Assembly (NCBI GenBank): GCA_022793675.1
Contig: JAAWDH010000041.1
Coordinates: forward strand, 186,001 to 250,000
DNA from: Oscillospiraceae bacterium
GTDB taxonomy: Bacteria; Bacillota; Clostridia; Oscillospirales; Ruminococcaceae
Length of the DNA: 64,000 bases
Direction of reading: 5' to 3'
Both the position numbers and the translations under genes were made by a program. Under the pieces are notes generated by a model. That model made no database searches. It was not told where the DNA came from and saw nothing but the letters and a program-made list of their open reading frames with translations. Positions 10,169-29,464 of this stretch are shown here, one piece after another; within the stretch, counting starts at the first letter, position 1, and every line of letters begins with the position of its first letter.

Positions 10169-10319
10169 AACTCCGACACAGGACGGCGTAATGCTGAAAA
10201 ATGCCGCAGCGGCGGGCTTTGAGCGTTTCCTGTTTTGTTTAGGAATAGTAGCCTGACCACTATTTGACCACTAAAATTTCATAGCTGGAACCCGTCCGAA
10301 AGGCGGTTTTCATAGAGAT

Positions 10320-10393
10320 GCGTCTGTAGCTCAGTTGGATAGAGTGTTCGGCTCCGACCCGGAAGGTCGCTGGTTCGAATCCAGTCAGGCGCA
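10320..10393 (+). tRNA. tRNA-Arg (anticodon CCG)
   Basis: The cloverleaf folds completely: acceptor GCGTCTG pairs with CAGGCGC (one G-T pair), D-arm GCTC-AGTTGGATA-GAGT, anticodon stem TTCGG/CCGGA around CTCCGAC (anticodon CCG, reading CGG), T-arm with GGTTCGAATCC, discriminator A. CCA is not encoded. From position 10352 onward the 3' part is repeated at 24549-24591, so the tRNA was restored by the incoming element on integration. A terminator follows. Confidence 0.95.
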
Positions 10394-10394
10394 T
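10352..10394 (+). repeat. attL: 43-bp direct repeat in the tRNA-Arg 3' half
   Basis: The 43 bp from CTCCGACCCGG to GGCGCAT are identical to 24549-24591; flanking bases differ on both sides. The repeat covers the anticodon loop to the end of the tRNA, the usual core site for tyrosine recombinases acting on tRNA genes. Confidence 0.93.
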
Positions 10395-10478: not shown

Positions 10479-11648
10479 TTAAATCCCAGTTATCTCTTTC
10501 AGCCTTTCCTGAGCCTCACGTTTATTCTTGTCGAAAGCATGACTATAGATATCCAGCGTCGTGCTAGCCTGAGCGTGTCCCAGCAGTCCGGCCACCGTCC
10601 GCACATCGACTCCCTGCGCGATCAGCAGGCTGGCGTTGGTGTGGCGAAGGCTGTGAACGTTCAAGTTTTCTGGCAGGCCATTTTCCCTCAGAATTTTCTT
10701 GAGCCGAAAGGTGAAAGTATTGGGCACCATAGGGTTGCCGTCTTGCTGGCGAAACAGATAATCGTCGGGCAGCAAGGCTCCCTGCCCCAGCTGCTCCTTT
10801 TCCCATTCTGACTCGCTTTGCCAGGCCTTCAGTAGGCTGCAAAGCCCTTCCGACAAATAAACAATTCGATTGCCGGCCTGGGTTTTCGGTTCCTTGACCA
10901 TGATCGGGTAATGCGGAATCTTGACGACGTTTCGCTGGATACGAAGGCTTCGCTGTCTCCAGTTAATGTCACTCCAGCGCAGCCCGCAGGCTTCACCTCG
11001 CCGCATTCCCGTGGCAAGGATCAGCTTGTAATAGACCTCATATTTCATGCTCTCCCCTTCCAATACTTGGATGAGTTTTCTCACCACTTCTTCATCCGCG
11101 ACAGGGCGCTCTTTGGAAGTGCCCTTTTTCTTGTAGGCCCGCCATGCCGGATTGTGGACAAGGTATCCTGCCTCGACAGCGTCGGACAGAATGCTGCAGA
11201 CGCAGGAATGAATACCTTCCACCGTCTTTTCAGCCAGCGGCTCGCCGTTTTTCCAATTCTTTTCCTGGCGCATTTCATCGTAAAACTGTCGTATAATCTC
11301 TTTAGTCAGATCGGCGAGCTTGTAATGTCCAAGTTTTGGCAGAATCCGCCGAATATCCTGCTGATCACGGGTAAAAGTTGACAGAGCCAGCTTTTTCGGT
11401 GCCACCTCCCGCAGCCAGATTTCAGTATATTCGGCAAATGTGATACTTTTGTCGACAGGCGCTGTATGCTTCACCTCCATTTCAAACAGCACAGCCTGCT
11501 CATTGAGCCATTTTTCAGTTTGCTTCGGGGTCAGTCCCTGTGGCGGATGAACCGTTTTCTGGGCAGATTTCAGCCGGTTGCCCTGATAGTCGTACCCTCT
11601 GGAAACAACGATTAAGTAGCTGTTTCCCCTTTTGCGAATCGATGCCAT
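10479..11648 (-). CDS. int: Tyrosine recombinase/integrase (element int, attL-proximal)
   Basis: The 389-residue integrase has an AP2-like arm-binding N terminus (MASIRKRGNSYLIVVSRGYD), a SAM-like core-binding domain (about 65-170) and a catalytic domain with TGMRRGE (Arg near 216), HSLRH (His 332, Arg 335), LLGHAQ and the nucleophile in LDIYSHAF (Tyr 368). It would carry out site-specific insertion and excision at the tRNA-Arg core. The ATG at 11648 is used rather than the open frame further upstream, because AGGAGTGGTC precedes it and the family N-terminal motif begins there. Lying 85 bp from the att core, it is the likeliest enzyme for this integration. Confidence 0.93.
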   Translation of the reverse strand: MASIRKRGNSYLIVVSRGYDYQGNRLKSAQKTVHPPQGLTPKQTEKWLNEQAVLFEMEVKHTAPVDKSITFAEYTEIWLREVAPKKLALSTFTRDQQDIRRILPKLGHYKLADLTKEIIRQFYDEMRQEKNWKNGEPLAEKTVEGIHSCVCSILSDAVEAGYLVHNPAWRAYKKKGTSKERPVADEEVVRKLIQVLEGESMKYEVYYKLILATGMRRGEACGLRWSDINWRQRSLRIQRNVVKIPHYPIMVKEPKTQAGNRIVYLSEGLCSLLKAWQSESEWEKEQLGQGALLPDDYLFRQQDGNPMVPNTFTFRLKKILRENGLPENLNVHSLRHTNASLLIAQGVDVRTVAGLLGHAQASTTLDIYSHAFDKNKREAQERLKEITGI

Positions 11649-11812
11649 TTTGACCACTCCTTTTTGCGCATCGCTACACCAAGGATACCGACATTTGCGC
11701 CGGAAAGCTATCACCAGAACTGACAAAGATTTTGCGCCAAAAGAGCAGAACCGCTGAAATGACAGGATGACGGCAATGACAGGTAATTTCACCCATCATT
11801 GCCTCTATTATT

Positions 11813-12964
11813 TTACATATTCTCCATTTCCGGCAGTAGAAGATCGTTCAGAATCGCCGCTGCCTGCTCCTTGCTCTCATCACGCGGGTGGCAGTAAGTG
11901 CGTTCCAAAAAAGCAGTGTCAGCGTGTCCCAGCAGGTCCGCTGTCACCTGCTTGCTCAAATTATTTTCCAGCAGATAGGTAGCGAAAAAGTGCCGCAAAG
12001 TATGCAGGTGATAGTCGGCAGGGAAACCATTTTGCTGATAGATTCGCCGCAAGCGTCGGGTGAAAGTATCCGGATGGATGGGTGTGCCATTATTTGCAAA
12101 GATATAGCCATCAGGCTGAATGCTGCCATAGCGATGCAGCTGTTCAGAGAGCAGCTCGCCAAGACTGTCAAAAGTTAACAGCGGCAGCACCACCGTTCGG
12201 CTGCGATGGTTTTTTGTGGAACCTTCGATGATACCTTGACCGCTCACGGCGCTTCGAGAACGTTCAACCCAAAGCTGAAAACCAGTATGAAAGCTGTTCC
12301 AGCGCAGCGCGCAAAGCTCGCCGCGGCGCAGGCCGGTTGTCATTGCCAACAGGTAAAAAGAGCGATAAACAGGCGGCTCCTGCAAGATGCATTGCAGCAA
12401 GCGGTCTATTTCATGCTGGCTGGGAATACGCTGCTGCTTTTGCTCCATATGAGGCTTCGCAACCCGGTGGGCAGGATTATAAAGCAAAATATCGTTTCGC
12501 TTAGCATCCTCCAATACTGCCGAAACCGTATCCAAATATTTTTGAACAGTCGCTTCGCAGACAGGCTGACCAGTTTTAGTGGTGCGTTTTCTCAGTTCCT
12601 CGCAAAGTTCTTCTAAATGCAGCGGGCGAATCTGATTGATGGCAAGGCCGCCGATGAGGGGATAGACTACCTCCAACTGCCGAGCATACCCTGCCAATGT
12701 GCTGGGTTTGTAATGTTTCTGCCGCGCCAGCCAGCTATGGGCATATTGCTCAAAAGTTGTGCGCTCGTCCTGTTCAAAGCCATAACGAAAGCGTTTCTCC
12801 AAGCACTCCGCTTCAGCAGCAATATACTGCTGTATACCACGCCTGGGCACACTTTCAGGTACATCAATCGTACAAGATTTCATCCGCTTTTTGCCATCGG
12901 CACGATATCCGTTACAGACCGTAATTTTAAATTTTCTTTCACTTTTTTGCTTAATGCTTGCCAT
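11813..12964 (-). CDS. Second tyrosine recombinase
   Basis: The 383-residue protein is another tyrosine recombinase, only distantly similar to its neighbour. It has an N-terminal DNA-binding region (MASIKQKSERKFKITVCNGY), a core-binding domain (about 68-165) and a catalytic domain with TGLRRGELCALRW, HTLRHFFATYLL, LLGHADTAF and the likely nucleophile in ERTYCHP (Tyr 357). The ATG follows AAAGGAGACA. Tandem recombinases of different type in one island may split excision and integration, or one may come from an older, nested element. Both catalytic sets look complete. Confidence 0.9.
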   Translation of the reverse strand: MASIKQKSERKFKITVCNGYRADGKKRMKSCTIDVPESVPRRGIQQYIAAEAECLEKRFRYGFEQDERTTFEQYAHSWLARQKHYKPSTLAGYARQLEVVYPLIGGLAINQIRPLHLEELCEELRKRTTKTGQPVCEATVQKYLDTVSAVLEDAKRNDILLYNPAHRVAKPHMEQKQQRIPSQHEIDRLLQCILQEPPVYRSFYLLAMTTGLRRGELCALRWNSFHTGFQLWVERSRSAVSGQGIIEGSTKNHRSRTVVLPLLTFDSLGELLSEQLHRYGSIQPDGYIFANNGTPIHPDTFTRRLRRIYQQNGFPADYHLHTLRHFFATYLLENNLSKQVTADLLGHADTAFLERTYCHPRDESKEQAAAILNDLLLPEMENM

Positions 12965-13062: not shown

Positions 13063-14019
13063 TTACTGTTGAATCAGGTGCAGTGTTCGATTTTCGCTGG
13101 TTCGGGTGCTGCTGATCTGGATGCCCATTGCTGCCAGCTTGTCCTGCTGTTGACGGAGCTGCTTGCTTAAACTGCTGGAGGTCAAAGAAACCCCTGCCTC
13201 TGCAGAAAGCCTTCGCGCCAGTTCTGTCGCACTGCCCCTGAATTCGTGCTGTCCAGCTAAAAGCTGTGCCACACTGTTAAGCACGATATTTTGCTGGCTG
13301 TCTGAATTTTCCGCAGCCTCCCATCGGCCACCTGAAAAGCTCAGTTCTAGCTCCTGATCTTCCACATCGCGTCCAGTGACAGTCAGCACCGCATTGCTGC
13401 TGCGCCGATCTCTCGCCAGAATCAAGGTGCCGTCAGCGCAGCCGCTCAAACCCGTTGTGCCGGACAGCCGGTTCATCGGATCATCGTCCGGCATCTTCCG
13501 CAGGTGATGAACAGCTAATAAGCAGATTCCGCACTGATCCGCCAAATTTTTCAGCGCCGCCATTTCCTGATAGTCCTGCGCATAAGCATTGCCGCTTCGG
13601 CTGCTGCGAATCTTTTGCAGCGTATCGACGATAACCAGGCGAATGGCCGGTTGCCTCTGTAAGATAGACAACAGTTGTTCCTCAAACCCCGCCCCCAGCG
13701 GTGCAGCTTGTCCGCAGAGATAGAATCCCTTCGGCGCAGAATTTGTTAGCTCCGCTGCTCGACGATGGATTCGATTGCTGCTGTCTTCTAAGCAGAAATA
13801 CAGCACCTCACTTGGCCGAATCTGACAGCCAAGAAAATTTTCGCCGCTGCAGATCGCCAGTCCTAGCTGTAAACACATCCATGACTTGCCGATTTTTGGC
13901 GCACCGCCGAGAATGTAAAGCCCAGGCGTCAGCAACCCTTCGACTAGGTATTGAATGGGCTGCAAGGGTTGAAGAAACAGCTCCTCCAGTGTCACAATTC
14001 TTTCTTTGATTTGATCCAT
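13063..14019 (-). CDS. AAA/RecA-like ATPase (AAA_25, RepA-type)
   Basis: The 318-residue ATPase has a Walker A at GGAPKIGKSW (about residues 38-47), a Walker B at LVIVDTLQKI and an LLAVHHLRK sensor-like strand. This layout is typical of RepA/DnaB-like hexameric ATPases found in integrative elements and plasmids. The C-terminal 80 residues (ATELARRLSAEAGVSLTSS) look like a winged-helix DNA-binding domain. It may help element replication after excision or act as a helicase loader. It lies next to a repeat-rich non-coding region (14190-14860), which fits a replication role. The family assignment is good; the function is inferred. Confidence 0.8.
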   Translation of the reverse strand: MDQIKERIVTLEELFLQPLQPIQYLVEGLLTPGLYILGGAPKIGKSWMCLQLGLAICSGENFLGCQIRPSEVLYFCLEDSSNRIHRRAAELTNSAPKGFYLCGQAAPLGAGFEEQLLSILQRQPAIRLVIVDTLQKIRSSRSGNAYAQDYQEMAALKNLADQCGICLLAVHHLRKMPDDDPMNRLSGTTGLSGCADGTLILARDRRSSNAVLTVTGRDVEDQELELSFSGGRWEAAENSDSQQNIVLNSVAQLLAGQHEFRGSATELARRLSAEAGVSLTSSSLSKQLRQQQDKLAAMGIQISSTRTSENRTLHLIQQ

Positions 14020-14189: not shown

Positions 14190-14860
14190 GCCCAGGAAAA
14201 AGGGCCTTTTCTTTCCCTGAAATTGTAAATTTTTTTATTTTGGTGATTTTTCAGATAGGTACATAAAAATCAAGGATAATAATCGGAATAATACAGTAAA
14301 AATTCAGCCTCTAATTATACAGATAGTCTAATCAGGTTTTTCTGCCTTCCTCACAAAAATCAATCGAATCAATCTGATCGAATCCAATCGTATCAATCTA
14401 ATCTCTGAAAAACAGGAAATGGACGACCGATTGGCCGTCCAAGCAACGTTCTCTCAACAGCTTTGTGGCCCTCTTGGCAATCCTATAGGACGACCAAAAG
14501 CCAATCTTTCTGCTGGAATAAAAAGAAGCAGACGCCCTATTGGACGCCCGCAGATAAGCACATATGTCCTATGCGCATTCTTTCCATAATGCTGAAAATA
14601 TAAGCGTGACGACCGTGACGGCTTAGAGGGGGTGGGGGAAAGTCGTCACGGTCGTCACGCTACGGGGCTTGGGGTCTCCCCAAAATGCAGAGTGGATATC
14701 ACTTTGCTATGCTTGCAGGACGATTCCCTAAACCGTGTTCCTCCATTCTCAAAACCCTCATGAGACTTTACAGTATCGTGCCATTTGACAACTAGAAACA
14801 GCATAAATCGTCAATGCTAAATGTGCAACTTCGTTTCAGATATCTTTACATTAAACATTT
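14190..14860. other. Repeat-rich non-coding region, possible element replication or control region
   Basis: No convincing gene lies in these 670 bp between the ATPase and the end of the defence operon. Contents in order: an AT-rich stretch; a run of ATC-containing near-repeats at 14350-14402 (AATCAATCGAATCAATC and similar); two GGACGACC-containing segments; a perfect 18-bp inverted repeat at 14603-14661; a 34-bp segment at 14695-14728 that recurs outside the element at 26174-26208; then AT-rich sequence into the vsr 3' end. Iteron-like runs beside a RepA-type ATPase suggest an origin, but this is inference. Confidence 0.5.
14603..14661. repeat. Perfect 18-bp inverted repeat with internal direct repeats
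   Basis: Arm AGCGTGACGACCGTGACG (14603-14620) is exactly complementary to 14644-14661, with a 23-bp G-rich spacer. Each arm contains two GTGACG units, and related TGACGG-type units occur at 11767-11782, 12984-13002 and 13036-13060 in the same element. Confidence 0.9.
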
Positions 14861-15286
14861 TTACAGGATGATATTCTTTTTGATTTCAAAAACAAGTGAC
14901 TGAAGCCGTTCATCTCGAACCGCTTTCTTCAATTCACATTCCCACACAATTATTACGTTCCACCCAAGCTCCTTAAGAATTGCTGTATTAGCTTGATCCC
15001 GTTCTGCATTTCGCCGGATTTTAGGTATCCAGTAAGCTTGATTAGAAGATGGCCATACAAACCGAGGACAATTGTGTTTATGCCAAAAGCACCCATTCAC
15101 AAAAATTACTGTCCTATATTTGGGAAGAACAATATCTGGACATCCTGGCAGGCCACGTACATTTTTACGGTATCGAAATCCCTTCGAAAATAAATACTTT
15201 CTTACAATTTCCTCAGGTTTAGAATTCGTACTTCGAATATGAGACATATTTTTGCTGCGAATTTCTTTGGAATGATTATCCGCCAT
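14861..15286 (-). CDS. vsr: Vsr-type DNA mismatch (nicking) endonuclease
   Basis: Vsr endonucleases nick next to T:G mismatches that arise from deamination of 5-methylcytosine and usually accompany a C5 methyltransferase. The 141-residue product keeps the family core LPGCPDIVLPKYRTVIFVNG followed by CFWHKHNC, with Asp51, His69 and His71 at the positions known for the E. coli enzyme. Cysteines and histidines of the structural zinc site are also present (HKHNC and WECELK). It lies 14 bp after the methyltransferase, as the last gene of the operon, and should protect that enzyme's sites from C-to-T mutation. Confidence 0.93.
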   Translation of the reverse strand: MADNHSKEIRSKNMSHIRSTNSKPEEIVRKYLFSKGFRYRKNVRGLPGCPDIVLPKYRTVIFVNGCFWHKHNCPRFVWPSSNQAYWIPKIRRNAERDQANTAILKELGWNVIIVWECELKKAVRDERLQSLVFEIKKNIIL

Positions 15287-15300
15287 AAGCGTTAACCTTT

Positions 15301-16887
15301 CTACATAGCCTCTCGTAATATTTTGGCAAGCTTCTTAGCTATTGATTTTGCCATAATCGGCGGAACTGCATTTCCAACCTGCTGATACTGGCTATCCTTT
15401 GTACCATAAAAAATAAAACTATCTGGGAAAGTTTGAAGCCGCGCTGCCTCACGAATACTGACAGCCCGATCACAAACAGGATGAATCCACATGGATTTCC
15501 GTACATTCACTACAGTACCGCTCGGTTCATCGTAATTAAGTCGAAGATAGATTGTATTTTGTGTACGAGTAATATCTGTATAGGTATTTTCTTTTAATGC
15601 TGCATCAAGTGCATGAAAATTCTGTCCTTGATGCAGCATTCGAAATCGCCGCATAGCAATTTCACCTGTAGCTGTTACAATATGATTCTTAAGAATTTTC
15701 GTATCTCTAAGCATCCCGCCTAATTCACTGATAACTCCGCAGCTTTCCAAAGGAATGCCAACATCATCACCCATATTCACAAAGGGAGGGACTTCTTCCA
15801 GGTCTGCAATTGCATCCCGTACAGTTCTGTAATTTTCCTCTGCAAAGCTGCCCTCAGGAAGTTTTACCTTTTTCGTAATAGTCTTTTTAACTCCCATTAC
15901 TATAAACCGCATTCTTTTTTGGGGCGCACCATAATCTGCAGCGCACAATGTTTTGGCATCAATGTCATAATCCGAACCCAAAATAGCTCTCAAATAATCA
16001 AACACGGCAAAGGACTGAACAATTACCGATAAATCCGCCGAAGCGTCAAACTGATCAACTATCAGCTGGTTGGAATAAATCTCCGCTGCTTTGCTCAGCA
16101 TACGCTGCAGCATAACAGCCAGCTCAATAGACTCCGTAAGCTTTTCAAGTTCCAATTCTCCTGAATAATACTGCATTACTGCATTAAAAGCTCGCCTTGA
16201 TTGTTCCAAAATATAATTGTCGTCCAGTTCCTTTTCTTTATATTCAGAAGCAAATTTAATTAAGCGCCTTTTATATTTATCAAGAGAAGCTTCCATCTTT
16301 TTAATATTTCTTCTTGATTTATAGATTATATTAAGAACGGTATATTGTTCTTCGGGCCAAATATATTCGCGAATTTTAGACTCATCTTTAACAATTTCCA
16401 ATGCTGTTTCAAACATATACTGCTTTTCCAAAAGAACTATTCTGCTTTTTTCCCTAGGAATCTGGTACTGATTGACTCGCTCATCATCCTGCTCACTGCG
16501 ATAAAAGCGATGAATGTCAGAACGCAGCATACTTACATTTTCCATTACAAACGCCTTAGGCTGTAATTCAAGAATGGCTCGGATATACTGTTTTACCAGC
16601 ATATTATTTTGATTAACTGCATGATTCTTCTGACGATTTGCATTTGAAAATCCCTGACACGGCGGGCCGCCGATTACAACATCGATAGGACCATACTTTG
16701 CTTGGATTTCCCTGTAATCCACCGAACAAACATCGCCCTGCACATCGACTCCTTCGTGATTGCGCCGATATGTTTCCTGCATATAAGGATTGTTCTCAAA
16801 TGCTGCTTTAATGACATATTTTCTAGTCTGCAAAAAGCCTAAGCTCAGTCCGCCGGCGCCGGCAAACAGATCTATCACACTGTACAT
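15301..16887 (-). CDS. C5-cytosine DNA methyltransferase with large internal insertion
   Basis: The 528-residue Dcm-like enzyme would methylate cytosine C5 in DNA. Motif I is DLFAGAGGLSLGF (6-18), motif IV GGPPCQGFS with catalytic Cys77, motif VI MENVSML (about 113), motif VIII APQKRMRFIVMG, then the recognition region, motif IX (LNYDEPSGTVV, RLQTFPDSF) and motif X QVGNAVPPIMAKSIA. Between motifs VI and VIII, normally close together, lies a mostly helical insertion of roughly 170 residues rich in charged amino acids. It could be a partner-binding or specificity module. Upstream by 15 bp is the AIPR gene, downstream by 14 bp is vsr. The target site cannot be predicted. Confidence 0.93.
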   Translation of the reverse strand: MYSVIDLFAGAGGLSLGFLQTRKYVIKAAFENNPYMQETYRRNHEGVDVQGDVCSVDYREIQAKYGPIDVVIGGPPCQGFSNANRQKNHAVNQNNMLVKQYIRAILELQPKAFVMENVSMLRSDIHRFYRSEQDDERVNQYQIPREKSRIVLLEKQYMFETALEIVKDESKIREYIWPEEQYTVLNIIYKSRRNIKKMEASLDKYKRRLIKFASEYKEKELDDNYILEQSRRAFNAVMQYYSGELELEKLTESIELAVMLQRMLSKAAEIYSNQLIVDQFDASADLSVIVQSFAVFDYLRAILGSDYDIDAKTLCAADYGAPQKRMRFIVMGVKKTITKKVKLPEGSFAEENYRTVRDAIADLEEVPPFVNMGDDVGIPLESCGVISELGGMLRDTKILKNHIVTATGEIAMRRFRMLHQGQNFHALDAALKENTYTDITRTQNTIYLRLNYDEPSGTVVNVRKSMWIHPVCDRAVSIREAARLQTFPDSFIFYGTKDSQYQQVGNAVPPIMAKSIAKKLAKILREAM

Positions 16888-16902
16888 GATCTCTTCTCCT
16901 GC

Positions 16903-19002
16903 CTACCCTTCCATGCTGAAGCCCTCTGCCTCAGCTCTTTTTAAAAGTGCAAGTAGCCTTCTGCATTGAAAATCAGGCGGATATCTGCCTGTATTTTGAG
17001 CTTTGCAGATAGCCTGCAGTGCGGGACCATCCTTATCCGCAGATATTGTTAAATGATTTTTAACAATAAATTCAGCTAATCGTTTCCACTGATCTGAAGT
17101 GTATTTAGCCGCCTCTATTTGTGCGTTAACATTATTAGTAAGCTGCTGATCTTTTTTGGCAGCTCTCTGAGCTTCCTGATGATCACTGCGTGTAATTAGA
17201 TAGACTGCCAATTCAGCAGAGAGCGGCATTTTAATTGTTTGGACAGTTTCCCAACATTCTGGGCGTTTGCACCATTGGGTGACATTTATAATTTTTCTTT
17301 TTGGATCAGTAATCTTGGAAAACACCAGCTCGGCCAGCTGAAGAAGAGAACTTTGTATTTGCTGAGGAAGGTTTTGCCTGTTCCAAATGGCAAGAAGATC
17401 CAGATCGGATCCAAAGAATTGCTGTTTTATAAGTCTGTGAAATTGTGCCAATGTATAATAAACAACATTGGCACGATAGCCATCTTGATACCACGACTGC
17501 TTTGGAATTTGTTTTTCTAAAAATTGGAACATCAAGATCAATGCCGCAGTTGATTTAAAATACAGCTCATTGAACTGTGTTTCGTCTTTACGCCATTGCT
17601 CATCTATATAATCTGCAAAGGCAGAAAAATTCGTCTGCGCTCCTTTGCTGACTATATGCGGAAATCCGCGCCAAACATTTTGGACTTTTGCCAAATCAGT
17701 TTTCTTAATAACCTGATTTTTGGGATTTTGGAGTTCAAACTGCTTTTTTTTAGCAGAAGTAAGCCGCATTTGTTCTTGAAGATATTGTCCTCTGGCACGT
17801 TCATAAAACCATTTTGTTTCATACTGGGCACCATTCACAGCGGGAGCAAATAAGCGGCGCGAGATTTGCTCCATTTGACGATGAAAAGGATGGGACGCAA
17901 AAAAATCTGCATCGCTGACCTTATTTTGGCTGTTGGAAGACCTTGAAATATCGCGAATGAGTTCATCTGACTCTTCTTGTGACGATTCATCAATCGCTGT
18001 AAGCTTCATCTGTACATAAAGTCTGCTTAAATCAGCCTTATCCCTATACCTGGCATTTGAAACAGAAGCTGTAGTCTGTCCGCCGTTAATAATTTGAAAA
18101 TCCCTCACGAATGTAATAAAGCAGCCATGATCTGTAACAGTGATTTCAACATCCATAGCCGTTGCTGATATGCCATTATTAAATGCAAGAAACATTTCCG
18201 GCCGCTTCAGAATAGTTTCCCGGATCTTTTTGTTCACAGCTACTTTAGTTGATAAAAATGAGCGCACATTGCCTTCCAAGAGTCTGCTGCCGTATTTATC
18301 ATAGATTTCAGCCAGCACTTCGCCTGGAATAACGCCAAGGTAGCTTTTATACTGACTGGACGCAGCAGAACTTGCCTCCAAACATGGAATTCCCTCACCG
18401 CAGTATTGACGGAAATCTATTTCAACAGTTTGGCGGCCCTGATCCGAACAGCAAACGCGGAAGACTCTGTTTATATCCCAAATTTGACCTTCAATAGGAA
18501 TACCTTCATAGTCATCCAGTTCAACAGATTTTACAGACGCACTCAAATCAGCATCTGTAAAAATAAGAAAACGATACTTTCGGATATCTTTTTCTTTTCG
18601 GCGCAGAAAATCAACTAAATCCGCGCAGGAAGTGCTTGGTTCTATTTCCTGATACAGATTGGTTCTTAACGCGGTATTTAAAAAAAGCCGTAGCTGGCCA
18701 AAATTATGCTCGGCAATCGCATTGGTCATTCGCCGTTCTTCATCATTGCCGTCAAAATTTGCAATCGCCAAATTCATGGCGTTATCGAATTCATCATATA
18801 TGTAACCGTCAACACGATACCTGCTGCGCCCTGCCTGCCCAACATAGTATGAAGGAACAAAATCTGACAGCACTTCAGAATCAATTAAAGCAGCAGACAT
18901 TTTATCAACAAACGCTGCACATGAGCCCTCGCCGCTTTCTGCTGCGGCAACTTTAACTTCCTGCAGGAAGCTTTCCTTGAAGTCAAATTCGACAGAATTC
19001 AT
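16903..19002 (-). CDS. AIPR-family (abortive infection phage resistance) protein
   Basis: The 699-residue protein matches the AIPR family, named from lactococcal abortive-infection proteins and common in MORC/Z1 restriction-like operons. The central signature is LLEGNVRSFLSTKVAVNKKI (about 240-259), then FLAFNNGISATA and FQIINGGQTTASV. The N-terminal 200 residues may form a nuclease-like alpha/beta fold; residues 400-690 are mainly helical. The biochemical role is not established; proposals include a nuclease or an effector coupled to modification sensing. It overlaps the upstream PD-(D/E)XK gene by 20 bp, which indicates coupled translation. No frameshift or missing motif is seen. Confidence 0.88.
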   Translation of the reverse strand: MNSVEFDFKESFLQEVKVAAAESGEGSCAAFVDKMSAALIDSEVLSDFVPSYYVGQAGRSRYRVDGYIYDEFDNAMNLAIANFDGNDEERRMTNAIAEHNFGQLRLFLNTALRTNLYQEIEPSTSCADLVDFLRRKEKDIRKYRFLIFTDADLSASVKSVELDDYEGIPIEGQIWDINRVFRVCCSDQGRQTVEIDFRQYCGEGIPCLEASSAASSQYKSYLGVIPGEVLAEIYDKYGSRLLEGNVRSFLSTKVAVNKKIRETILKRPEMFLAFNNGISATAMDVEITVTDHGCFITFVRDFQIINGGQTTASVSNARYRDKADLSRLYVQMKLTAIDESSQEESDELIRDISRSSNSQNKVSDADFFASHPFHRQMEQISRRLFAPAVNGAQYETKWFYERARGQYLQEQMRLTSAKKKQFELQNPKNQVIKKTDLAKVQNVWRGFPHIVSKGAQTNFSAFADYIDEQWRKDETQFNELYFKSTAALILMFQFLEKQIPKQSWYQDGYRANVVYYTLAQFHRLIKQQFFGSDLDLLAIWNRQNLPQQIQSSLLQLAELVFSKITDPKRKIINVTQWCKRPECWETVQTIKMPLSAELAVYLITRSDHQEAQRAAKKDQQLTNNVNAQIEAAKYTSDQWKRLAEFIVKNHLTISADKDGPALQAICKAQNTGRYPPDFQCRRLLALLKRAEAEGFSMEG

Positions 19003-19948
19003 CCGGAGTCCTCCTCTTTTCCCAAGCTGATAAACTTGGCAGGTTTAAGACATAATGCAGATTCACAATTTCTGGTGCCAACGAATTTCGCGTTAAACGC
19101 GGAAACGCATGATCAACGCAGTAAATCTGCTTGGATAAGAATACAAATCTCTGTTCATCATATTCCGGCACATCAATATAGCCTGCACTTCCAAGCTTCA
19201 GCATAAAGCACTCAACAGCAGCGGGCACCATACTGACTGCATTAATTACGACGCGCACCAAGCTATGCAGCGTAAAAGCTCCGGGATATGCGGGGGCGCA
19301 TTTATCAGCTCTCATTACAATAAGCTCGCCAGGCTGTGCATTATCCAGCTGCTCCACAGAAGATATTGTAATTTCCGACGATGATGCTCCTATAGTTTTT
19401 ACCTCGTGCCACCCGTCATCATAAACAAAATCCTGATCTGCGCCTTCCGGGCCGACCCATCCAGCAAGTGCATCCATTGGAGCAAGTCCCCCGTCAATCC
19501 TCTCTTTCAAGTATAAAAGCTCGCCGATGAGACCTTTCTGTGCATTGATTCCAAGCAGCGCAGAGTTTCTGTTCTGAAGCAGCTTAAGCCATGCGGCATA
19601 TCTTTTCATCACCTGAACCAGCGCTTGAGCTTGATCTGTCTCTGCACTGGAAAAGCGAATCATATCTCCGCACATGGTAATAAATACATCTTCCTGCTCT
19701 TGAGCAAGCAGTGTAAAAGACAGGGCATACCTCCCATCCCTGCGCTGCCTGCAGAGAGCTTGGATGCTTTTTGAAGAATCAGCCTTGCCGACCGGATTAT
19801 CACTGACAATAATGATGGATTTTTTCTCTGCCGAAAAATAACCGACATACCATTCCAGCGGATGAGCAATTCCCAGCTGAAGCGAACCGCCCTGATAATA
19901 ATTGATGCTCTCCCACTTGTCCCGCAGCTCCTGTTCATAGTCATTCAT
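18983..19948 (-). CDS. PD-(D/E)XK motif protein (DUF4420-like nuclease)
   Basis: The 321-residue protein resembles the DUF4420 or PD-(D/E)XK motif family. A helix KGLIGELLYL with Glu143 precedes ADQDF (Asp171 and Asp173) and WHEVKT (Glu182, Lys184), giving the E-D-ExK arrangement of a restriction-endonuclease fold. This is the most likely DNA-cutting subunit of the operon. Its start codon overlaps the Z1 stop (TAATG) and its 3' end overlaps the AIPR start, so the three are tightly coupled. Family recognition rests on motif order; DNA cleavage is inferred. Confidence 0.85.
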   Translation of the reverse strand: MNDYEQELRDKWESINYYQGGSLQLGIAHPLEWYVGYFSAEKKSIIIVSDNPVGKADSSKSIQALCRQRRDGRYALSFTLLAQEQEDVFITMCGDMIRFSSAETDQAQALVQVMKRYAAWLKLLQNRNSALLGINAQKGLIGELLYLKERIDGGLAPMDALAGWVGPEGADQDFVYDDGWHEVKTIGASSSEITISSVEQLDNAQPGELIVMRADKCAPAYPGAFTLHSLVRVVINAVSMVPAAVECFMLKLGSAGYIDVPEYDEQRFVFLSKQIYCVDHAFPRLTRNSLAPEIVNLHYVLNLPSLSAWEKRRTPDEFCRI

Positions 19949-22680
19949 TACTCATCCTCCTCCTCTTCCGGATCCATCCAATTAACTAATTCCACAAGGT
20001 TAACCATATAATTTGCAGTTTCCGTTTCTCCTTCTCTTCTTGGAAAACCTACGCCAAGTGCAAATAGGAATAAAGGAACATCCCGATTCTGCGCTCCCGA
20101 ACAATCTGCGTTTATTACATGAAGCATCAAAATCGGCTGTCTGTCTTTTATCAAATAGGCGCTGTCGGGAATATTTTTCTTTTCCGGATGAAGTTCCAGA
20201 AAAGCCTGCTCAGCATCTTTGATCTGCTGAGCTGTCAGTCCTATACTGGTACAGCCGCCGGAACCAACTCTTACTTTCGTTCCAGAAACACTGATCATTT
20301 TAGAATCTGCACTGACTTTTCGGAATTCGGTATGTTCAAGAGGCAGTATTTCGCTGCCGCAGCTCAGCCCTGCAGAATAAGCTCTGCCGCTGCCGGAATT
20401 TATAAGGACAACATCCCAGCCGCCCGGCCACTCATGTCTGTCAATATAGTCAGAGAGGGCTCTGCTGTTAAAATTCAGATGCCAAGGATGTGTCTCAAAT
20501 TCCTGCAGCAGCTGAGCGACAGCCTCCTTGGGGACATGTTTCCAAAAATAATGGCCTTTTGCCCTTTCATCACCTGAGGGCACCCTTTCACCCTTCACGG
20601 CCAAACTGTTTACAAAGGCTTTAAATGCCTTTTCGTTATCTTCAAGGATAGAACGCGCAGCCCGCAGACGAGGAGTCTCAAGGAGCCTGCCTGATACCGA
20701 AATGGGACAGGAGATACTCTGAGCGGTCCGCATCTTATTTCTTGCAGTCACAATAAGCGAGCCTGGATCCTGTCTTACTTTCAGGCCAAACTCTCTTGGG
20801 GTTTGATGGGCATTGTGCATAGCAGCGATCTCGTCTTTCAGCTCATTGACAGCACGAGTAATTTGACTGTACCAATCAATGGCATCCTGAGACAGCCAAA
20901 TTTTTACCAAATCCGCATAATTGGGCCGATATCCAAACCATCTTCCCATTTGAAGCAAGGTATCATACATCTGAGTATTTCTGTAAAAATAGGAAACGCA
21001 AAGCCCCTCCAAAGTTAAACCTCTGGACAAACTATTGCCGCCGACTGCAATTACTCTAAGCCCATCATTTTTATGATTGAAATAATCTAAGCTGCCTGCG
21101 CCGGTTTCCATATTAACAGCACGAACATCAATCGGAGCAATTGCTCTATACAGATACGTACGAAGAATTTCCGGCCAATCAGTTCCCGCTTTAGCAGACA
21201 GATCAAACTTATCCCACACTTCATGCAGTTTGCGAACAGATGTTATTTCTTCTGCTTTTTCCCAATCAAGCTGCGAGTAATTTCGAAGATCCGATTTAAT
21301 CTGATCAAGCCACATATTAAGAATATCTGCTGTCTGATTTTGAACTTTCTTAAGGCGGCTGACGTGCACCATCATAGATCTGTGCTCAGCGGCATCTCCT
21401 CTTCGATCGCGCACTGCATTTACAAGCAGGAAATATTCTGCAGCCTCAATAAGATCATCGGGAAGTTCATTAACAATAAGGTCTTTTTTATGCTTAGGAG
21501 GAAAGATCTCTTCAAGCGCAAAACTGTCAAGAGGCTGAAGCATCTCAAAAAAATCCCCGCCATCTCCGAAAATTCTATCTGCGCCAATATAGTTTGTTGG
21601 AGCAGACAGCGCATAAATAAAATCCGCAGGAAACAGGTCATCGCTTTGACCTGGGTCAATAAAGATATTCGCAAAAGGCGTCGCAGTAATTCCCAAATAA
21701 GTAACCTTGCTGAACTGGCCAAGCAAGCGCCGAATGCAGTCATTAATGGCTGCAGGAGAAGAATCGGGATCTTTGGTATTGACTGACGCATTGTCAGCTT
21801 CATCATCAATTAAAAGCATCGGCAGTTCAATCTGTCCTGCAGCGTTGAGAGTGTTATTATTGGACAGCCATCTAATCAAATTATTTAATATTTTTTTGTT
21901 TTTCTTTACAACAAGAACAACAGGGCAGTTAACATTTTCAATTCCCAAATTATTGCTGCGCAGAACGCCGCTGTCAAAGTCCTTTGTTACAGAGGTGAAG
22001 GCAACTATCTTTTTGTCATGGCCGTAACGTCCAACGCCGACAGGCATATTTTTTATACCCTGCTCTGCTTTTGGGTCCAAATAATACTCGCTTTTCCTTC
22101 CCGTAAACTCCATATCCAAGCGTTCCTGGGTCTGCTTACGAAGATTTTCCTGAATACCAGCCAGGATAATAATAATCCTGTATCCTGTATCAGCCGCTTT
22201 ATTACAGATTGCTGTATAATTAGCAGTCTTTCCGGACTGAACATCGCCAAGCACCAACCCTCTGATGAAAAAATGATCCTCACTGGGATCGCCGCAAAGA
22301 TCAAGGATTTCATCTGATACTTTTCCTAAATTGGCAGTAACGCGAGGATTCCAATGCTTCATTTCCTCAAGATATTTTTTATAACGACTCCAGAAGAAGA
22401 AATCAAAATCTGCTCTTTTGGCAGGAAGCCAGGACTGATGCCCGCTGTTCCTGTCGTTTATGCAGACGCCAATGTCCATCAAAACGACAAGCGTTTGTTT
22501 CAAACGATTCAAAATTTGAGCATATTCATGATCGCTGACTGGCAGAAAAGAACTCATGCTGTTCCTTATAAGATCTGCCTGCTCTCTAAATTCATCTTCT
22601 GTCGGCGGGACATCTTTATACACAGAATTGATGCTCGCAGAAATAATGCGTTCCAGCTGCTCTGCATTTGAATTAGGCAT
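19948..22680 (-). CDS. Z1-domain P-loop ATPase/helicase-like protein
   Basis: The 910-residue protein carries a superfamily-II-like P-loop core and the Z1 domain found in MORC-linked restriction systems. Walker A is LGDVQSGKT (145-153), Walker B LLIDDEADNAS (about 295), and helicase-like motifs follow at LGITATPFAN, GGNSLSRGLTLEG and MGRWFGYRP, with a candidate arginine finger. The Z1 domain fills roughly residues 400-640. It probably remodels or translocates on DNA, driving the nuclease subunit. Its ATG directly follows the stop codon of the MORC-like ATPase gene with no gap. Confidence 0.9.
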   Translation of the reverse strand: MPNSNAEQLERIISASINSVYKDVPPTEDEFREQADLIRNSMSSFLPVSDHEYAQILNRLKQTLVVLMDIGVCINDRNSGHQSWLPAKRADFDFFFWSRYKKYLEEMKHWNPRVTANLGKVSDEILDLCGDPSEDHFFIRGLVLGDVQSGKTANYTAICNKAADTGYRIIIILAGIQENLRKQTQERLDMEFTGRKSEYYLDPKAEQGIKNMPVGVGRYGHDKKIVAFTSVTKDFDSGVLRSNNLGIENVNCPVVLVVKKNKKILNNLIRWLSNNNTLNAAGQIELPMLLIDDEADNASVNTKDPDSSPAAINDCIRRLLGQFSKVTYLGITATPFANIFIDPGQSDDLFPADFIYALSAPTNYIGADRIFGDGGDFFEMLQPLDSFALEEIFPPKHKKDLIVNELPDDLIEAAEYFLLVNAVRDRRGDAAEHRSMMVHVSRLKKVQNQTADILNMWLDQIKSDLRNYSQLDWEKAEEITSVRKLHEVWDKFDLSAKAGTDWPEILRTYLYRAIAPIDVRAVNMETGAGSLDYFNHKNDGLRVIAVGGNSLSRGLTLEGLCVSYFYRNTQMYDTLLQMGRWFGYRPNYADLVKIWLSQDAIDWYSQITRAVNELKDEIAAMHNAHQTPREFGLKVRQDPGSLIVTARNKMRTAQSISCPISVSGRLLETPRLRAARSILEDNEKAFKAFVNSLAVKGERVPSGDERAKGHYFWKHVPKEAVAQLLQEFETHPWHLNFNSRALSDYIDRHEWPGGWDVVLINSGSGRAYSAGLSCGSEILPLEHTEFRKVSADSKMISVSGTKVRVGSGGCTSIGLTAQQIKDAEQAFLELHPEKKNIPDSAYLIKDRQPILMLHVINADCSGAQNRDVPLFLFALGVGFPRREGETETANYMVNLVELVNWMDPEEEEDE

Positions 22681-24138
22681 TTAAAGAACCTCCTTTTTCA
22701 GTTCTGAAACAACCAGCGGATGCTGAGAGAAAGGCTCAATTCCTTCCAAAGCAACAAGGAGAGCCAGCTTTTCTTCAGCTGTTGTCTGTGCAGCAAGCAT
22801 ATTTTTCAAAGCTTCTTTTACCTCCTGCTCATTTTGTTCTTGACCATTCACCAGCTGCTCCTCATTGTTTAAATCTACATATAACTGATTCAAAGGAATC
22901 CCTGTTTCAATTTGCTTTAAAAGCTCATTAAGCATGACAGAGACATTCGGTGCCTGCCTTAGAATCTGCTCAACCATCGGATGCACTCGATTGATCTCAT
23001 AGTAAAAGCCGCCATGGGTATTCTTCATACGATTCCAAATATGCACACTTCTGTCATCAGTTTCTCTTTTGCCGCGAAAAGTCCAGGTGCGTTTGCTTCG
23101 TTCAGCGATTTTCTCAATAATAATTTCCAGGTTTTTTCTCACTTCTGCCGGCGGAAGTGCTGAAGATTTTTTTATATCAAGTGTCCATAAATCGTCCAGC
23201 GTATTGGGAATATCTACCCGAATTCTAGCAAGTTTTGACAAATCGTCCTGCCGTCTCATCCGAAACCAGGTGCCCCAAACAAGAAGGCGCTTATTGCGGT
23301 AGATATAAAAGCCCTGCTGGCGGCGCAGGCCTTCTTTTCCGCCGAGATCCTCTCTTTCCTTTTGAGTCATTTTTGAAATATGCGGCAGAATATAAGCACG
23401 AACGGTAATTTTCTGCCCATGCACAAGCAAAATTTCATCATCCATGGCCTGTGTGCTTTTAGATTCTAAAAATGGATCTGAGGCAGAAATTTTTTGCCCA
23501 TTAATAGAAATTTTGAGCTTTGTGATTCCTTTTTCCCCGCTGAGATATCGGTGAAATACAAGGGAGAGGTGCTCACGGACACTGTCAATCCTTCTTCCCA
23601 TCACCTGCTCAAAATCAGTTTCGCCGGATTTGAGACGATCCAATTTCCGCCAGACGACCAGCGTTCCCGAATCTTGTGCAAGCAAACCATCTATATTCGG
23701 GACGTCATTCATTTCTTCTTTTTCCAGAATAATCAGCGACCACATCCCGGTTTTTGAAACATAGTCTATATCCCACCTGCGTCCTTCAATTTTGTCCGCT
23801 TGTTTTGAAATGACTGTAAGACATCGGCACTGAGAAAGCGATGCAGTCTTTAATCCCAGACCAAAACGTCCTAAATCCTGAGCATCTCTTGCATCGATAG
23901 GATTTCTGCTGCCATACTGCATAGCAGTATTTAACTTATCCGCGTCCATTCCGAAACCATTATCCAAAATAGATATGTATGATTCACCAATAGGAAAGAA
24001 AGAAAGATTTACCATATTGGCACCAGCTGCTATGCTGTTGTCAATGATATCCGCAGCTGCTGTTTCAAGAGAATACCCAATTGCCCGAGTTGATTCTATC
24101 AAAGTTGGAGCATATGGAGGCAAATCCATAGTTTTCAT
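22681..24138 (-). CDS. MORC/MutL-like GHKL ATPase
   Basis: The 485-residue protein has the GHKL ATPase fold of MutL, Hsp90 and MORC: N-box ETAAADIIDNSIAAGA (25-40) with catalytic Glu25 and Asn34, the DNGFGM motif (59-64), and the G2 loop GRFGLGLKTAS (90-100). An S5-like second domain follows, and the C terminus is helical and Glu/Gln-rich (about 415-465), perhaps for dimerisation. In this class, ATP-driven dimerisation is thought to gate DNA handling by the partners. I chose the ATG at 24138, 8 nt after AAAGGGG; a longer frame to 24192 lacks a site. It is the first gene of the six-gene operon behind the promoter at 24259-24287. Confidence 0.9.
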   Translation of the reverse strand: MKTMDLPPYAPTLIESTRAIGYSLETAAADIIDNSIAAGANMVNLSFFPIGESYISILDNGFGMDADKLNTAMQYGSRNPIDARDAQDLGRFGLGLKTASLSQCRCLTVISKQADKIEGRRWDIDYVSKTGMWSLIILEKEEMNDVPNIDGLLAQDSGTLVVWRKLDRLKSGETDFEQVMGRRIDSVREHLSLVFHRYLSGEKGITKLKISINGQKISASDPFLESKSTQAMDDEILLVHGQKITVRAYILPHISKMTQKEREDLGGKEGLRRQQGFYIYRNKRLLVWGTWFRMRRQDDLSKLARIRVDIPNTLDDLWTLDIKKSSALPPAEVRKNLEIIIEKIAERSKRTWTFRGKRETDDRSVHIWNRMKNTHGGFYYEINRVHPMVEQILRQAPNVSVMLNELLKQIETGIPLNQLYVDLNNEEQLVNGQEQNEQEVKEALKNMLAAQTTAEEKLALLVALEGIEPFSQHPLVVSELKKEVL

Positions 24139-24258: not shown

Positions 24259-24287
24259 ATTATAGCATAGACCGGACAAATTGTCAC
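24259..24287 (-). promoter_or_regulatory. Promoter of the MORC-Z1-AIPR-Dcm-Vsr operon
   Basis: GTGACA and TATAAT with a 17-bp spacer on the minus strand, with TGC before the -10 box. It is about 120 bp upstream of the first start codon. A promoter this close to consensus suggests steady expression. Confidence 0.75.
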
Positions 24288-24548: not shown

Positions 24549-24591
24549 CTCCGACCCGGAAGGTCGCTGGTTCGAATCCAGTCAGGCGCAT
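24549..24591 (+). repeat. attR: 43-bp direct repeat (displaced tRNA-Arg 3' end)
   Basis: Identical to 10352-10394. It is the original 3' half of the tRNA gene, pushed away by integration. Just inside, at 24405-24423, lies CTGACCACTACTTGACCAC, a near copy of 10253-10271 on the other side of the tRNA. Confidence 0.93.
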
Positions 24592-24627: not shown

Positions 24628-24715
24628 CAATCTGTCGAAAAAAGTCCAGTTTTTACTGTGCTTTTTCATTTGAGTATGGTATAATAAAGAAAACATCACA
24701 GAAAAGGTGAAAGCA

Positions 24716-26143
24716 ATGCTGGAAACAGGACAGATGGATCGAGACAATGTGGAAATGGTAAACATCGATATGCTAGTGCCGGAAGATCACCTGTTGAGAA
24801 AAATAGATACAGCAATAGATTTTACAAAAATCTACGAATTTGTAAAAGATCTGTACAGTGAAGATACTGGGAGACCCAGCATCGATCCAGTTGTCTTGTT
24901 TAAAATCGTCCTGATCCAGCATATTTATGGGATCCCTTCCCTAAGGAGAACGCTGGAGAATATTCGGATGAACCTGGCTTATCGCTGGTTTCTAGGGTAT
25001 GGAATAGCAGAGACTATCTCGCATTTTTCAACTGTAAGCTATAATTTCAAGCACCGTTTTAACAGCGGAACGATCGAGTATATATTCAGATGGATTTTGA
25101 AGGAAGCAGCGGAGGCAGGCTATCTGGATACTAAGGCGGCATTTGTGGATGGAACCCACATCAAGGCCAACGCCAATCTAAAGAAACAGATTCGCAAAGA
25201 AGTTCCTAAAGAAGCAAGACGCTATGCGGGAATCTTAATGAAGGAAGTAAACGCCGATCGGGAAGAGCACGGAAAGAAGCCCTTCGATGATGACAATCAT
25301 GGTGAACTGTCCGAGGAAACAAAAACCGTCAGCGAGAGTACGACCGATCCCGACAGTGGTGTTTTCCACAAAGGTGAGCACAAAAAATGCTTTGCTTATG
25401 AAGCGCACACCGCCTGCGATCAGCACAATTTTGTGTTGGATGTGGTTGTAACGCCTGGAAACATCCATGACAGTATTGCCTTCGCCCCTCTCTATAATGA
25501 ACTGACTGCCCACTATCCCCAGCTGAAAACCATCATTGCCGACGCTGCTTACAAAACCCCCCTGGATCTGCAAGAGAATCTTTGACGACGGACGTGTTCT
25601 TTCCACCGCATACAAACGGCCCATGACTAAAAGGGCGGACTGCCCTGGTGGCAGTATGTGTATGACGAATACTATGACCAAGTGATCTGCCCCGAATACC
25701 ATTTGCTGGACTATTCCACAACAACTCGTGAAGGGTACAGGGAGTACAAGAGCAAAGGCTACCTGTGCCGAAGTTGTCCCTCTCTCGATCGGTGTACCTC
25801 CAATGCCAAGTGCGAAAAAACCGTGATGCGGCACATTTGGCAGGAGTACATTGAGATGGCGGAGGATGTATGCCATACGCCGAAGTACAAAGCTCTGTAC
25901 GACTTGCGCAAAGAAACCATTGAACGGGTATTTGCGGATGCCAAAGAGGAACATGGTATGCGCTATACTCTTTACCAAGGCCTCACTCAGGTGACCAACT
26001 GGGTGAAGCTTAAATTTGCTGCTATGAATCTCAAAAAGCTGGCAGTCCGGAAGTGGAAGGAGGGCCTTTATTCCCTCTTTTGTCTGCGCTATAATTTTCT
26101 TTTTGCGAGAATACGAAAAAACGCAAGTTTCGCTTTCGCTTAA
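24716..26143 (+). pseudogene. IS1182-family transposase, disrupted by two compensating frameshifts
   Basis: The N-terminal part (to about 25562) has the family start MVNIDMLVPEDHLLRKID and the DDE core piece AAFVDGTHIKANAN. An extra C in a run of six C near 25560 ends the frame 22 nt later. The second part, from about 25630, returns to the original frame after a missing A in a run near 25627 and continues with CRSCPSLDRCTSN, RKETIERVFADAKEEHGMRY and the final helices. The expected junction (YKTPW-ICKRIFDDGR) is readable only by shifting frame. Both indels lie in homopolymers, so real decay, sequencing error or programmed slippage are all possible. Confidence 0.85.
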
Positions 26144-26427: not shown

Positions 26428-29223
26428 ATGGAGGCTGAGCAGACCGCTTCTGCTGCAGACACAGTTTCCAGAAATGTTCGCCGCAAGCAGGCAAGCAAAG
26501 CCGCAAGTCAGCGCCAAAAACCGGAAGCTGAAACTCGTTACCTTATTGATCAGCAGCTGCGCCAGGTAGATTGGGAAGCTGACACAGAGGTACTGCGCTA
26601 TTCAAAAGGAACTCGTCCCGCAAAAGGGCGTAATATCGCTATTGCTGAATGGCCCACCGATTCCACAGTTGGTAATCGAGGCCGTGTCGATTATGCCTTC
26701 TTTGTTGGTATGCAATTAGTTGCTATGGTTGAAGCTAAGGCAATCCATAAGGATATCCCCTCTGTTATTGATTACCAGTGCAAGGATTACTCACGCAATA
26801 TCCGCAGCGCTGATAGGACTTATCAAATTGGCACTTGGAACAACTATGGAGTACCTTTCATCTTTGCTACCAATGGCAGGCCCCATCTAGAGCAATATGA
26901 CACCAAAAACGGCATATGGTTTCTGGATTTGAGACAGCCTGATAATGCCCCTAAAGTTCTCAAAGGCTGGATGAGTCCAAATGGAATCATGGAACTGCTT
27001 GACAGGGATATTTCCGCAAGAAATCAAGACTTACGGAAAATGTCTTATGATCTGCTGCGTGACAAAGACGGTTTAAACCTCCGTGAGTATCAAATCAGGG
27101 CCATTGAAGCCGCTGAGAAAGCAATTATCAATGGGCAGTTCAATATTTTGCTTGCCATGGCAACAGGCACAGGAAAGACACGTACCGTTTTGGGTATGAT
27201 TTACCGATTTCTAAAAACAAAACGCTTTCACAGAATTCTTTTCCTTGTGGATCGAACGTCATTGGATGAACAAGCATCTGAAGTATTCAAAGAAGTAAAA
27301 TTAGAAGATTTGATGACTCTTGATGAGATTTACAATATCAAAGGGTTAGATGATAAAGACATAGACGGCGAAACCCGAATTCAAATTGCCACTGTCCAGA
27401 GTATGGTCAAGCGAATCCTGTACAATGACGAAGATACTATGCCTGCTGTCTCTGACTATGATTTGGTTATCGTTGATGAAGCACACCGAGGCTATATTCT
27501 GGATAGGGAAATGGGAGAGGATGAAGTTCTTTACCGTGACCAGCTTGATTACCAAAGCAAATACCGCTGCGTTATAGAATACTTTGACGCTGTGAAAATT
27601 GCGCTGACGGCAACACCAGCACTGCAGACCACGAAAATCTTTGGACAGCCTGTATTCAAATATACATATCGCGAGGCTGTGATTGAAGGGTATCTGGTTG
27701 ATCATGATGCTCCCCATAGATTACTCACAAAATTGAATACAGAAGGTATTCATTATAAACAAGGTGATACTGTTGTACGATATGACCCTGTGACTGGAGA
27801 GGTTACCAACTCCGAACTGCTGGAAGATGAGTTAGACTTTGATGTGGATGACTTCAATCGCCAAGTTATAACAGAGTCATTCAATCGAACGGTTTTAGCA
27901 GAAATCGCTCATGATATTGACCCAGAAAGTCCTGATGTGCAGGGGAAAACGCTAATCTATGCCGTTAATGATAGCCATGCCGACTTGATTGTAAAAATTC
28001 TGAAAGAGATTTACGCAGAAATGGGCGTTGACAATGATGCGATTATGAAAATCACTGGCTCTGTAGGCGGAGGCAACAGGAAGAAAGTACAGGATGCCAT
28101 CAGGCATTTCAAAAATGAACGTTTTCCCGGCATTGCAGTCACGGTAGATTTGCTGACTACGGGTATAGATATTCCTGAAATCACAACATTGGTATTCATG
28201 CGCCGTGTGAAATCCCGTATTCTGTTTGAACAAATGATGGGCCGAGCTACCCGCCTTTGTCCCCAAATCCATAAAACCCACTTTGAGATTTATGACCCTG
28301 TCGGTGTTTACAATTCTTTGGAAGCGGTCAGCACCATGAAACCCGTTGTTGCCGACCCCAGCGCCACATTCGAGCAGCTTTTGGATGACTTGAAAGTTTT
28401 TGAAGACGAACATCAAGTGCAAAACCAGATAGACCAAATTATTGCAAAGCTGCAGCGTCAAAAACGGCATATGGATGCTGAAACGATGAAACATTTTACC
28501 AACATGGCAGGAGGACAAGACCCCACTCAGTTTATTGTTGATATTCAGCAACGCAAGCCAGAGGATGCCAAAAAACATCTGCTTGCCAATACAGAGCTGT
28601 TCAAAATGTTGGAGCAGTTCAGGCCAGACGAACGTCGTTCTGTTGTGATCTCTGACCACGAAGATGAGCTCTTGGAGCATAGCAGAGGCTATGGCGAAAA
28701 CAGTAAGCCAGAAGATTATTTAGACGCATTTTCAGCCTATGTCAAGGCCAATCTGAATGAAATTGCTGCATTGAATATCGTCTGCACAAAACCAAAAAAG
28801 CTGACCCGTGAGGCTTTAAAATCCTTGCGCCTGACGCTGGACAGAGAGGGCTTTACCGCCCAACAGCTTAATACAGCTATTTCTCAGATGACCAGCGAGA
28901 AAATCACTGCAGATATTATCAGCCTAATCCGCCGCTATACTATTGGCTCTGCTTTGATCTCCCACGAAGCTAAAATACGGCAGGCAATGGATAAGCTTAA
29001 AAAGGCACACAATTTCTCAAAGTCGGAACTCAACTGGATTATCAGAGTGGAAAAGTACCTGATGGAAGAATCTGTTCTGAATGTGACTGTATTTGATGAG
29101 GACATCCGCTTTAAAAGCGCAGGCGGCTTTGCGAAAATCAACAAAGTGTTTGGCAATAAACTGGAAAGCATTATTTTGGAACTCAACGAGTATTTGTACG
29201 ATGACGGAGGAAAAATCGCATGA
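26428..29223 (+). CDS. hsdR: Type I restriction enzyme R subunit, N-terminally shortened
   Basis: HsdR is the motor and nuclease subunit of type I restriction enzymes. The 931-residue frame has a coiled, charged N terminus, a PD-(D/E)XK nuclease region (VDYAFFVGMQ, then VEAKA with Glu102 and Lys104), Walker A MATGTGKTRT (about 250), IVDEAHRGY, LTATPALQT, VDLLTTGIDIPE and QMMGRATRL. The family's usual N-terminal domain of about 150 residues is missing: in-frame codons extend upstream only to a stop near 26371, and the residues just before the Met (DKAGEEQKEKQLA) still look like HsdR. The Met has no good ribosome-binding site. The 5' end was probably lost by rearrangement near 26370. It may be non-functional. 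Confidence 0.85.
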   Translation: MEAEQTASAADTVSRNVRRKQASKAASQRQKPEAETRYLIDQQLRQVDWEADTEVLRYSKGTRPAKGRNIAIAEWPTDSTVGNRGRVDYAFFVGMQLVAMVEAKAIHKDIPSVIDYQCKDYSRNIRSADRTYQIGTWNNYGVPFIFATNGRPHLEQYDTKNGIWFLDLRQPDNAPKVLKGWMSPNGIMELLDRDISARNQDLRKMSYDLLRDKDGLNLREYQIRAIEAAEKAIINGQFNILLAMATGTGKTRTVLGMIYRFLKTKRFHRILFLVDRTSLDEQASEVFKEVKLEDLMTLDEIYNIKGLDDKDIDGETRIQIATVQSMVKRILYNDEDTMPAVSDYDLVIVDEAHRGYILDREMGEDEVLYRDQLDYQSKYRCVIEYFDAVKIALTATPALQTTKIFGQPVFKYTYREAVIEGYLVDHDAPHRLLTKLNTEGIHYKQGDTVVRYDPVTGEVTNSELLEDELDFDVDDFNRQVITESFNRTVLAEIAHDIDPESPDVQGKTLIYAVNDSHADLIVKILKEIYAEMGVDNDAIMKITGSVGGGNRKKVQDAIRHFKNERFPGIAVTVDLLTTGIDIPEITTLVFMRRVKSRILFEQMMGRATRLCPQIHKTHFEIYDPVGVYNSLEAVSTMKPVVADPSATFEQLLDDLKVFEDEHQVQNQIDQIIAKLQRQKRHMDAETMKHFTNMAGGQDPTQFIVDIQQRKPEDAKKHLLANTELFKMLEQFRPDERRSVVISDHEDELLEHSRGYGENSKPEDYLDAFSAYVKANLNEIAALNIVCTKPKKLTREALKSLRLTLDREGFTAQQLNTAISQMTSEKITADIISLIRRYTIGSALISHEAKIRQAMDKLKKAHNFSKSELNWIIRVEKYLMEESVLNVTVFDEDIRFKSAGGFAKINKVFGNKLESIILELNEYLYDDGGKIA

Positions 29224-29447: not shown

Positions 29448-29464
29448 TTGAATGAAGGGACACG

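Follow-up and report, generated by a model that had tools for sequence, protein, structure and literature searches.

A mobile DNA element in an Oscillospiraceae bacterium carries an operon of six co-directed genes whose products probably act together as a single multi-part restriction-modification system directed at foreign DNA. The stretch analysed, hereafter the window, comprises 64,000 nucleotides (contig JAAWDH010000041.1, positions 186,001 to 250,000). The operon combines a MORC ATPase, an SF2-type ATPase, a DUF4420 nuclease and an AIPR protein with a C5-cytosine methyltransferase and a Vsr mismatch endonuclease; the first four are homologues, in identical order, of MzaB, C, D and E of the Mza system (mzaABCDE), which was reportedly described by Gao et al. 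in 2020. We tentatively propose, as a reading whose chances we put somewhat short of even, that Mza supplies the restriction half of a 5-methylcytosine (5mC) restriction-modification system, and that the 'orphan' Dcm-Vsr pair of E. coli, acting at CCWGG, would be its modification and repair half. The Mza cores nearest to that of E. coli would carry their own methylase-Vsr pair, with a C-to-T footprint at CCWGG in the operon DNA. E. coli itself would have lost a linked copy or never needed one, since Dcm-Vsr modifies that site anyway; Dcm would then be retained to give immunity against a mobile restriction system, and the window operon would be a self-contained GCWGC version of this machinery.

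Among relatives of the core, a C5-methylase gene was found nearby in 63 of 63 sufficiently covered loci, placed upstream, downstream or inverted relative to it. With a methylase accompanying the core almost without exception, Mza-type systems are better seen as restriction-modification than as stand-alone defence. Of 5426 E. coli genomes, 55 contained at least 80% of the length of mzaABCDE, and 5307 contained dcm-vsr at the same threshold. Four of the 55 were examined: M19, G1/2 and ET358 over the whole interval from tRNA-Leu to yecA, and 600055 starting partway through the island. In none of these four islands was a C5-methylase or Vsr annotated, and a profile search of the M19 and G1/2 stretches likewise detected none; a type I restriction-modification M subunit in three of the four is an alternative possible source of modification. 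In M19, the only individual mza genome in which the presence of dcm was checked, dcm-vsr lies ~66 kb from mzaA. (In G1/2 an IS421 transposase splits mzaB [L168, 5840-8730], and IS421 lies inside the mza match in several other E. coli records.) Of 18 other gammaproteobacterial genomes with an MzaC-like gene, all 18 encode a C5-methylase in the same stretch and 16 encode Vsr. Four of the 18 stretches (L136 and L204-L206) are without a MORC or AIPR match, and none of the 18 genomes has a Dcm above the family cut-off of 710 bits, although a Dcm-like match in G063 reaches 361 bits. One of the 18 (L132) pairs an MzaA-like sigma factor with a linked methylase-Vsr pair, and a viral contig (L098, 13937-15211) carries a Mza-like core with Vsr and a Dcm-family methylase that is 36.6% identical to E. 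coli Dcm over residues 80-452. Together, these findings make it plausible that Dcm-Vsr serves as the modification half for Mza. The relatives suggest a possible purpose for the 'orphan' Dcm methylase, an idea that is directly testable. The available part of a 2025 account describes the cellular roles of Dcm as less well characterised than those of Dam and names EcoRII, absent from K-12, as the cognate enzyme (PMC12369378). The proposed link between Mza and Dcm was not found in a literature search whose coverage left out most subscription papers and all preprints.

Deamination turns methylated C into T; in DNA that constantly accompanies a methylase, target sites should therefore become rarer and their C-to-T products commoner, and we used this to look for target sites. 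Operon coding sequences were compared with synonymous codon shuffles and with the genes flanking each operon, bootstrapping over loci, in seven sets of loci. The target-recognition domains (TRDs) of 82 non-redundant loci fell into type 0 (that of the window; n=50), type 1 (n=23) and six small types; the hypervariable TRD that had been expected was not seen among them. For replication, 6 and 12 loci were taken from 13 and 16 genomes with an MzaC match, giving 18; those omitted were G015, a duplicate, G102, which lies on a broken end, and the remaining weak matches. L203 and L136, whose methylases are not type 1, were dropped, and L204-L206 were kept. The 16 type-1 replication loci share ancestry: a single family contributed 11 of them and one class-wide draw the other 5. 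The type-1 footprint was strong although Vsr is common there (20/23; 14/16 in replication). The CCWGG product exceeded the site in 22/23 and 15/16 type-1 loci, and CCWGG depletion relative to the flank alone ranked 3/49 in the first set and 2/35 in the second. The analysis offers a candidate site for a family in which, in the literature found, targets are given only for scattered cases; it also suggests C-to-T footprints in DNA travelling with a methylase as a simple guide to 5mC specificity.

Several results weigh against the reading of the operon as a restriction-modification system or against its proposed footprint sites. All 50 type-0 loci together gave no clear site, with GCWGC ranking 131/313 by the stricter rule; restricting the set to the 34 loci whose TRDs are closest to that of the window gave rank 82/203, and the Vsr-plus subset, which includes the window, gave 178/210. 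Type 0 was split by Vsr only after the 50-locus set had given no clear site. CGWCG and GATC were depleted in the type-0 operon coding sequences relative to flanks, without explanation, and erasure of the footprint by Vsr would be consistent with type 0, not with type 1. In type-1 loci CGSCG/CGNCG also scored steadily, at smaller size (0.30-0.36) and again without explanation; by depletion relative to the flank alone, CGSCG outranked CCWGG in both type-1 sets and GCGC did so in the first. GCSGC ranked first in both sets when type 1 was contrasted with type 0, and was also among the Listeria sites. CCWGG at C2 ranked 18/520 or 9/246 in the discovery set, RCCWGGY at C3 ranking first in the latter, and the CCWGG product exceeded the site in 40/50 type-0 loci as well, where the flanks are equally low (0.69 vs 0.73). 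In the E. coli Mza operon CCWGG is not depleted (25 vs 22.9 expected). None of the core subunits clearly swaps specificity together with the methylase, and the window MORC has Asp in place of the catalytic Glu.

Alternatively, the methylase itself might be the target-reading subunit, with a core devoid of sequence specificity being recruited or licensed by whichever C5-methylase is its partner. We consider this unlikely: the shifting position and orientation of the methylase gene would be unusual for a stoichiometric subunit, and of the core proteins DUF4420 evolves fastest (median pair identity 0.29, against 0.43-0.45 for the others; 87 complete loci), as expected for a site reader. In CglI, moreover, the R protein binds the target site, according to the part of the account available. 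Covariation with the methylase TRD was also tried as a means of finding the specificity subunit; the partial correlations were too weak to single one out.

Abortive infection, in which the core would respond to a phage product by killing the cell by way of AIPR or DUF4420, with methylase and Vsr as passengers or regulators, appears improbable. AIPR takes its name from abortive infection and has a match to AbiU, and the four E. coli islands indicate that a core can exist without a C5-methylase nearby. However, the methylase is present in all 63 loci and all 18 further gammaproteobacterial stretches, and dcm-vsr in nearly all E. coli. AIPR_N also lacks the usual catalytic (D/E)xK lysine: in the structure model this N-terminal domain has a PD-(D/E)XK-like fold, the relevant strand reads L-x-I-A-D-Y, D65 is present in 89%, and the window protein has N82. 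An N-terminal HEPN domain, stated for AIPR in the accessible text of PMC3506569, does not appear in the model. Type IV-like restriction, with the core cutting modified rather than unmodified foreign DNA, has very little to commend it: the nuclease domains to which AIPR_N is similar include those of AspBHI (titled modification-dependent) and the modification-dependent MspJI, but the resemblance is limited to the nuclease fold, FokI scores equally high, and, with a resident 5mC methylase close to the core at each sufficiently covered locus, the cell's own DNA would be a target.

The first-pass annotation of the window had described an intact six-gene operon behind one near-consensus promoter. 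The operon stood up to scrutiny, with all listed genes on one strand (14861..24138) and a promoter-like site ahead of them; the interpretation is partly supported. The proposed families were recovered by Pfam (HATPase_c_3, DUF4420, AIPR and DNA_methylase) and, for Vsr, by TIGR00632. The catalytic motifs listed in that annotation are present in the methylase (C77, within GGPPCQGFS; TRD at about residues 332-476), Vsr (D51/H69/H71) and the nuclease (E-D-ExK); the methylase, labelled 'Dcm' there, scores 23 bits for the Dcm family (cut-off 710). The DUF4420 residues E143, D173, E182 and K184 are invariant across 58 sequences. In its structure model (pLDDT, the predicted local distance difference test, 93.9), compared for a PD-(D/E)XK nuclease fold, VIA rows span residues 1-116 only and no Foldseek row is below 0.001; residues 1-115 show low-Z similarity (5.6 at most) to type III secretion chaperones and ARPC2, perhaps merely a common arrangement. 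The MORC S5 motif, GFYIYRNKRLL at residue 294, fits GhXhhpXXRhl. The window Vsr retains the catalytic and zinc residues, conserved for the most part (C66, C73 and C117 besides those above), and has Asn at position 64, where E. coli has His. In a Cohnella locus (L057), MORC, AIPR, methylase and Vsr are each present as two or three open reading frames (ORFs).

The element lies between exact direct repeats, the left one being part of a tRNA-Arg gene, beside which two tyrosine integrases stand in tandem (10479-12964). Beside the right repeat is an IS1182-family transposase in two frames (24707-26143; DUF772/DDE_Tnp_1 and DDE_Tnp_1_6 parts). Beyond that repeat, at 26428-30595, come genes for a 931-aa type I restriction protein (EcoEI_R_C, ResIII) and a 376-aa HsdM-like protein, followed by an ORF without a Pfam match (30592-31197).

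Table 1. Coordinates of the operon and of the element that carries it (window positions).
Feature	Position	Strand	Basis
tRNA-Arg (CCG), integration target of the element	10319..10394	+	ARAGORN
Left attachment repeat, 3' part of tRNA-Arg	10352..10394	+	43-bp exact direct repeat with 24549-24591
Tyrosine integrase adjoining tRNA-Arg	10479..11792	-	Pfam Phage_integrase 3.1e-33
Second tyrosine integrase	11813..12964	-	Pfam Phage_integrase 2.6e-23
AAA_25/RepA-like ATPase of the element	13063..14019	-	Pfam AAA_25 4.6e-25
Second terminator-like hairpin downstream of operon	14420..14441	-	
Terminator-like hairpin downstream of operon	14528..14551	-	
Vsr mismatch endonuclease, 141 aa	14861..15286	-	TIGR00632 151.8 bits, cut-off 97.85
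C5-cytosine DNA methyltransferase, 528 aa	15301..16887	-	Pfam DNA_methylase 1.4e-59
AIPR protein, 699 aa, AIPR_N domain 31-182	16903..19002	-	Pfam AIPR 3.3e-101, AIPR_N 6.6e-37; MzaE-like
DUF4420 nuclease, predicted PD-(D/E)XK, 321 aa	18983..19948	-	Pfam DUF4420 2.5e-54
Prokaryotic MORC GHKL-S5 ATPase, 485 aa	22681..24138	-	Pfam HATPase_c_3 2.6e-30, run on ORF from 24192
Promoter-like site	24259..24287	-	GTGACA-17-TATAAT, extended -10
Right attachment repeat	24549..24591	+	43-bp exact direct repeat with 10352-10394

The nucleoside triphosphate-dependent restriction systems CglI and NgoAVII have a phospholipase-D type nuclease and a B3 domain, in place of which the window has a predicted PD-(D/E)XK nuclease; no Pfam family for such a nuclease with a B3 site-binding domain was found among the six window proteins, and these systems are described with three genes, without MORC or AIPR. 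Like E. coli Dcm-Vsr, the operon has a C5-methylase followed by Vsr, the latter homologous across residues 2-128 (3.4e-32 to E. coli Vsr 1cw0); unlike in that pair, the methylase is not Dcm-like. The core subunits are each 27-38% identical to those of E. coli Mza and fall far below the NCBIfam Mza equivalog cut-offs (375/850, 521/1500, 100/420 and 335/1050 bits for MzaB, C, D and E). An MzaA sigma factor was not found beside mzaB, and the nine matches in the same genome all score below the cut-off and lie on contigs other than the window's. Unlike the four E. coli islands, moreover, the window has its own methylase and Vsr. Among the closest descriptions is the 'third type' of MORC operon of Iyer, Abhiman and Aravind in 2008 (PMC2292703), whose work the first-pass annotation had cited. 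As given in the available part of that paper, it comprises MORC with GhXhhpXXRhl, an SF2 ATPase with a C-terminal DThhQXuRhFG domain, a restriction endonuclease-fold nuclease with E-D-ExK, AIPR and, frequently, a cytosine methylase and Vsr. The window differs from it in no tested feature, and that part of the account mentions neither a target site nor a tRNA element. In the accessible text of Miller et al. 2022 (PMC9523054), type II of a putative defence system is a near relative, and DNA repair endonucleases are tied to type I. Operons of this kind had been predicted in 2008 and were reported anew in 2022; the window operon is one more example, ordinary as a kind and well preserved.
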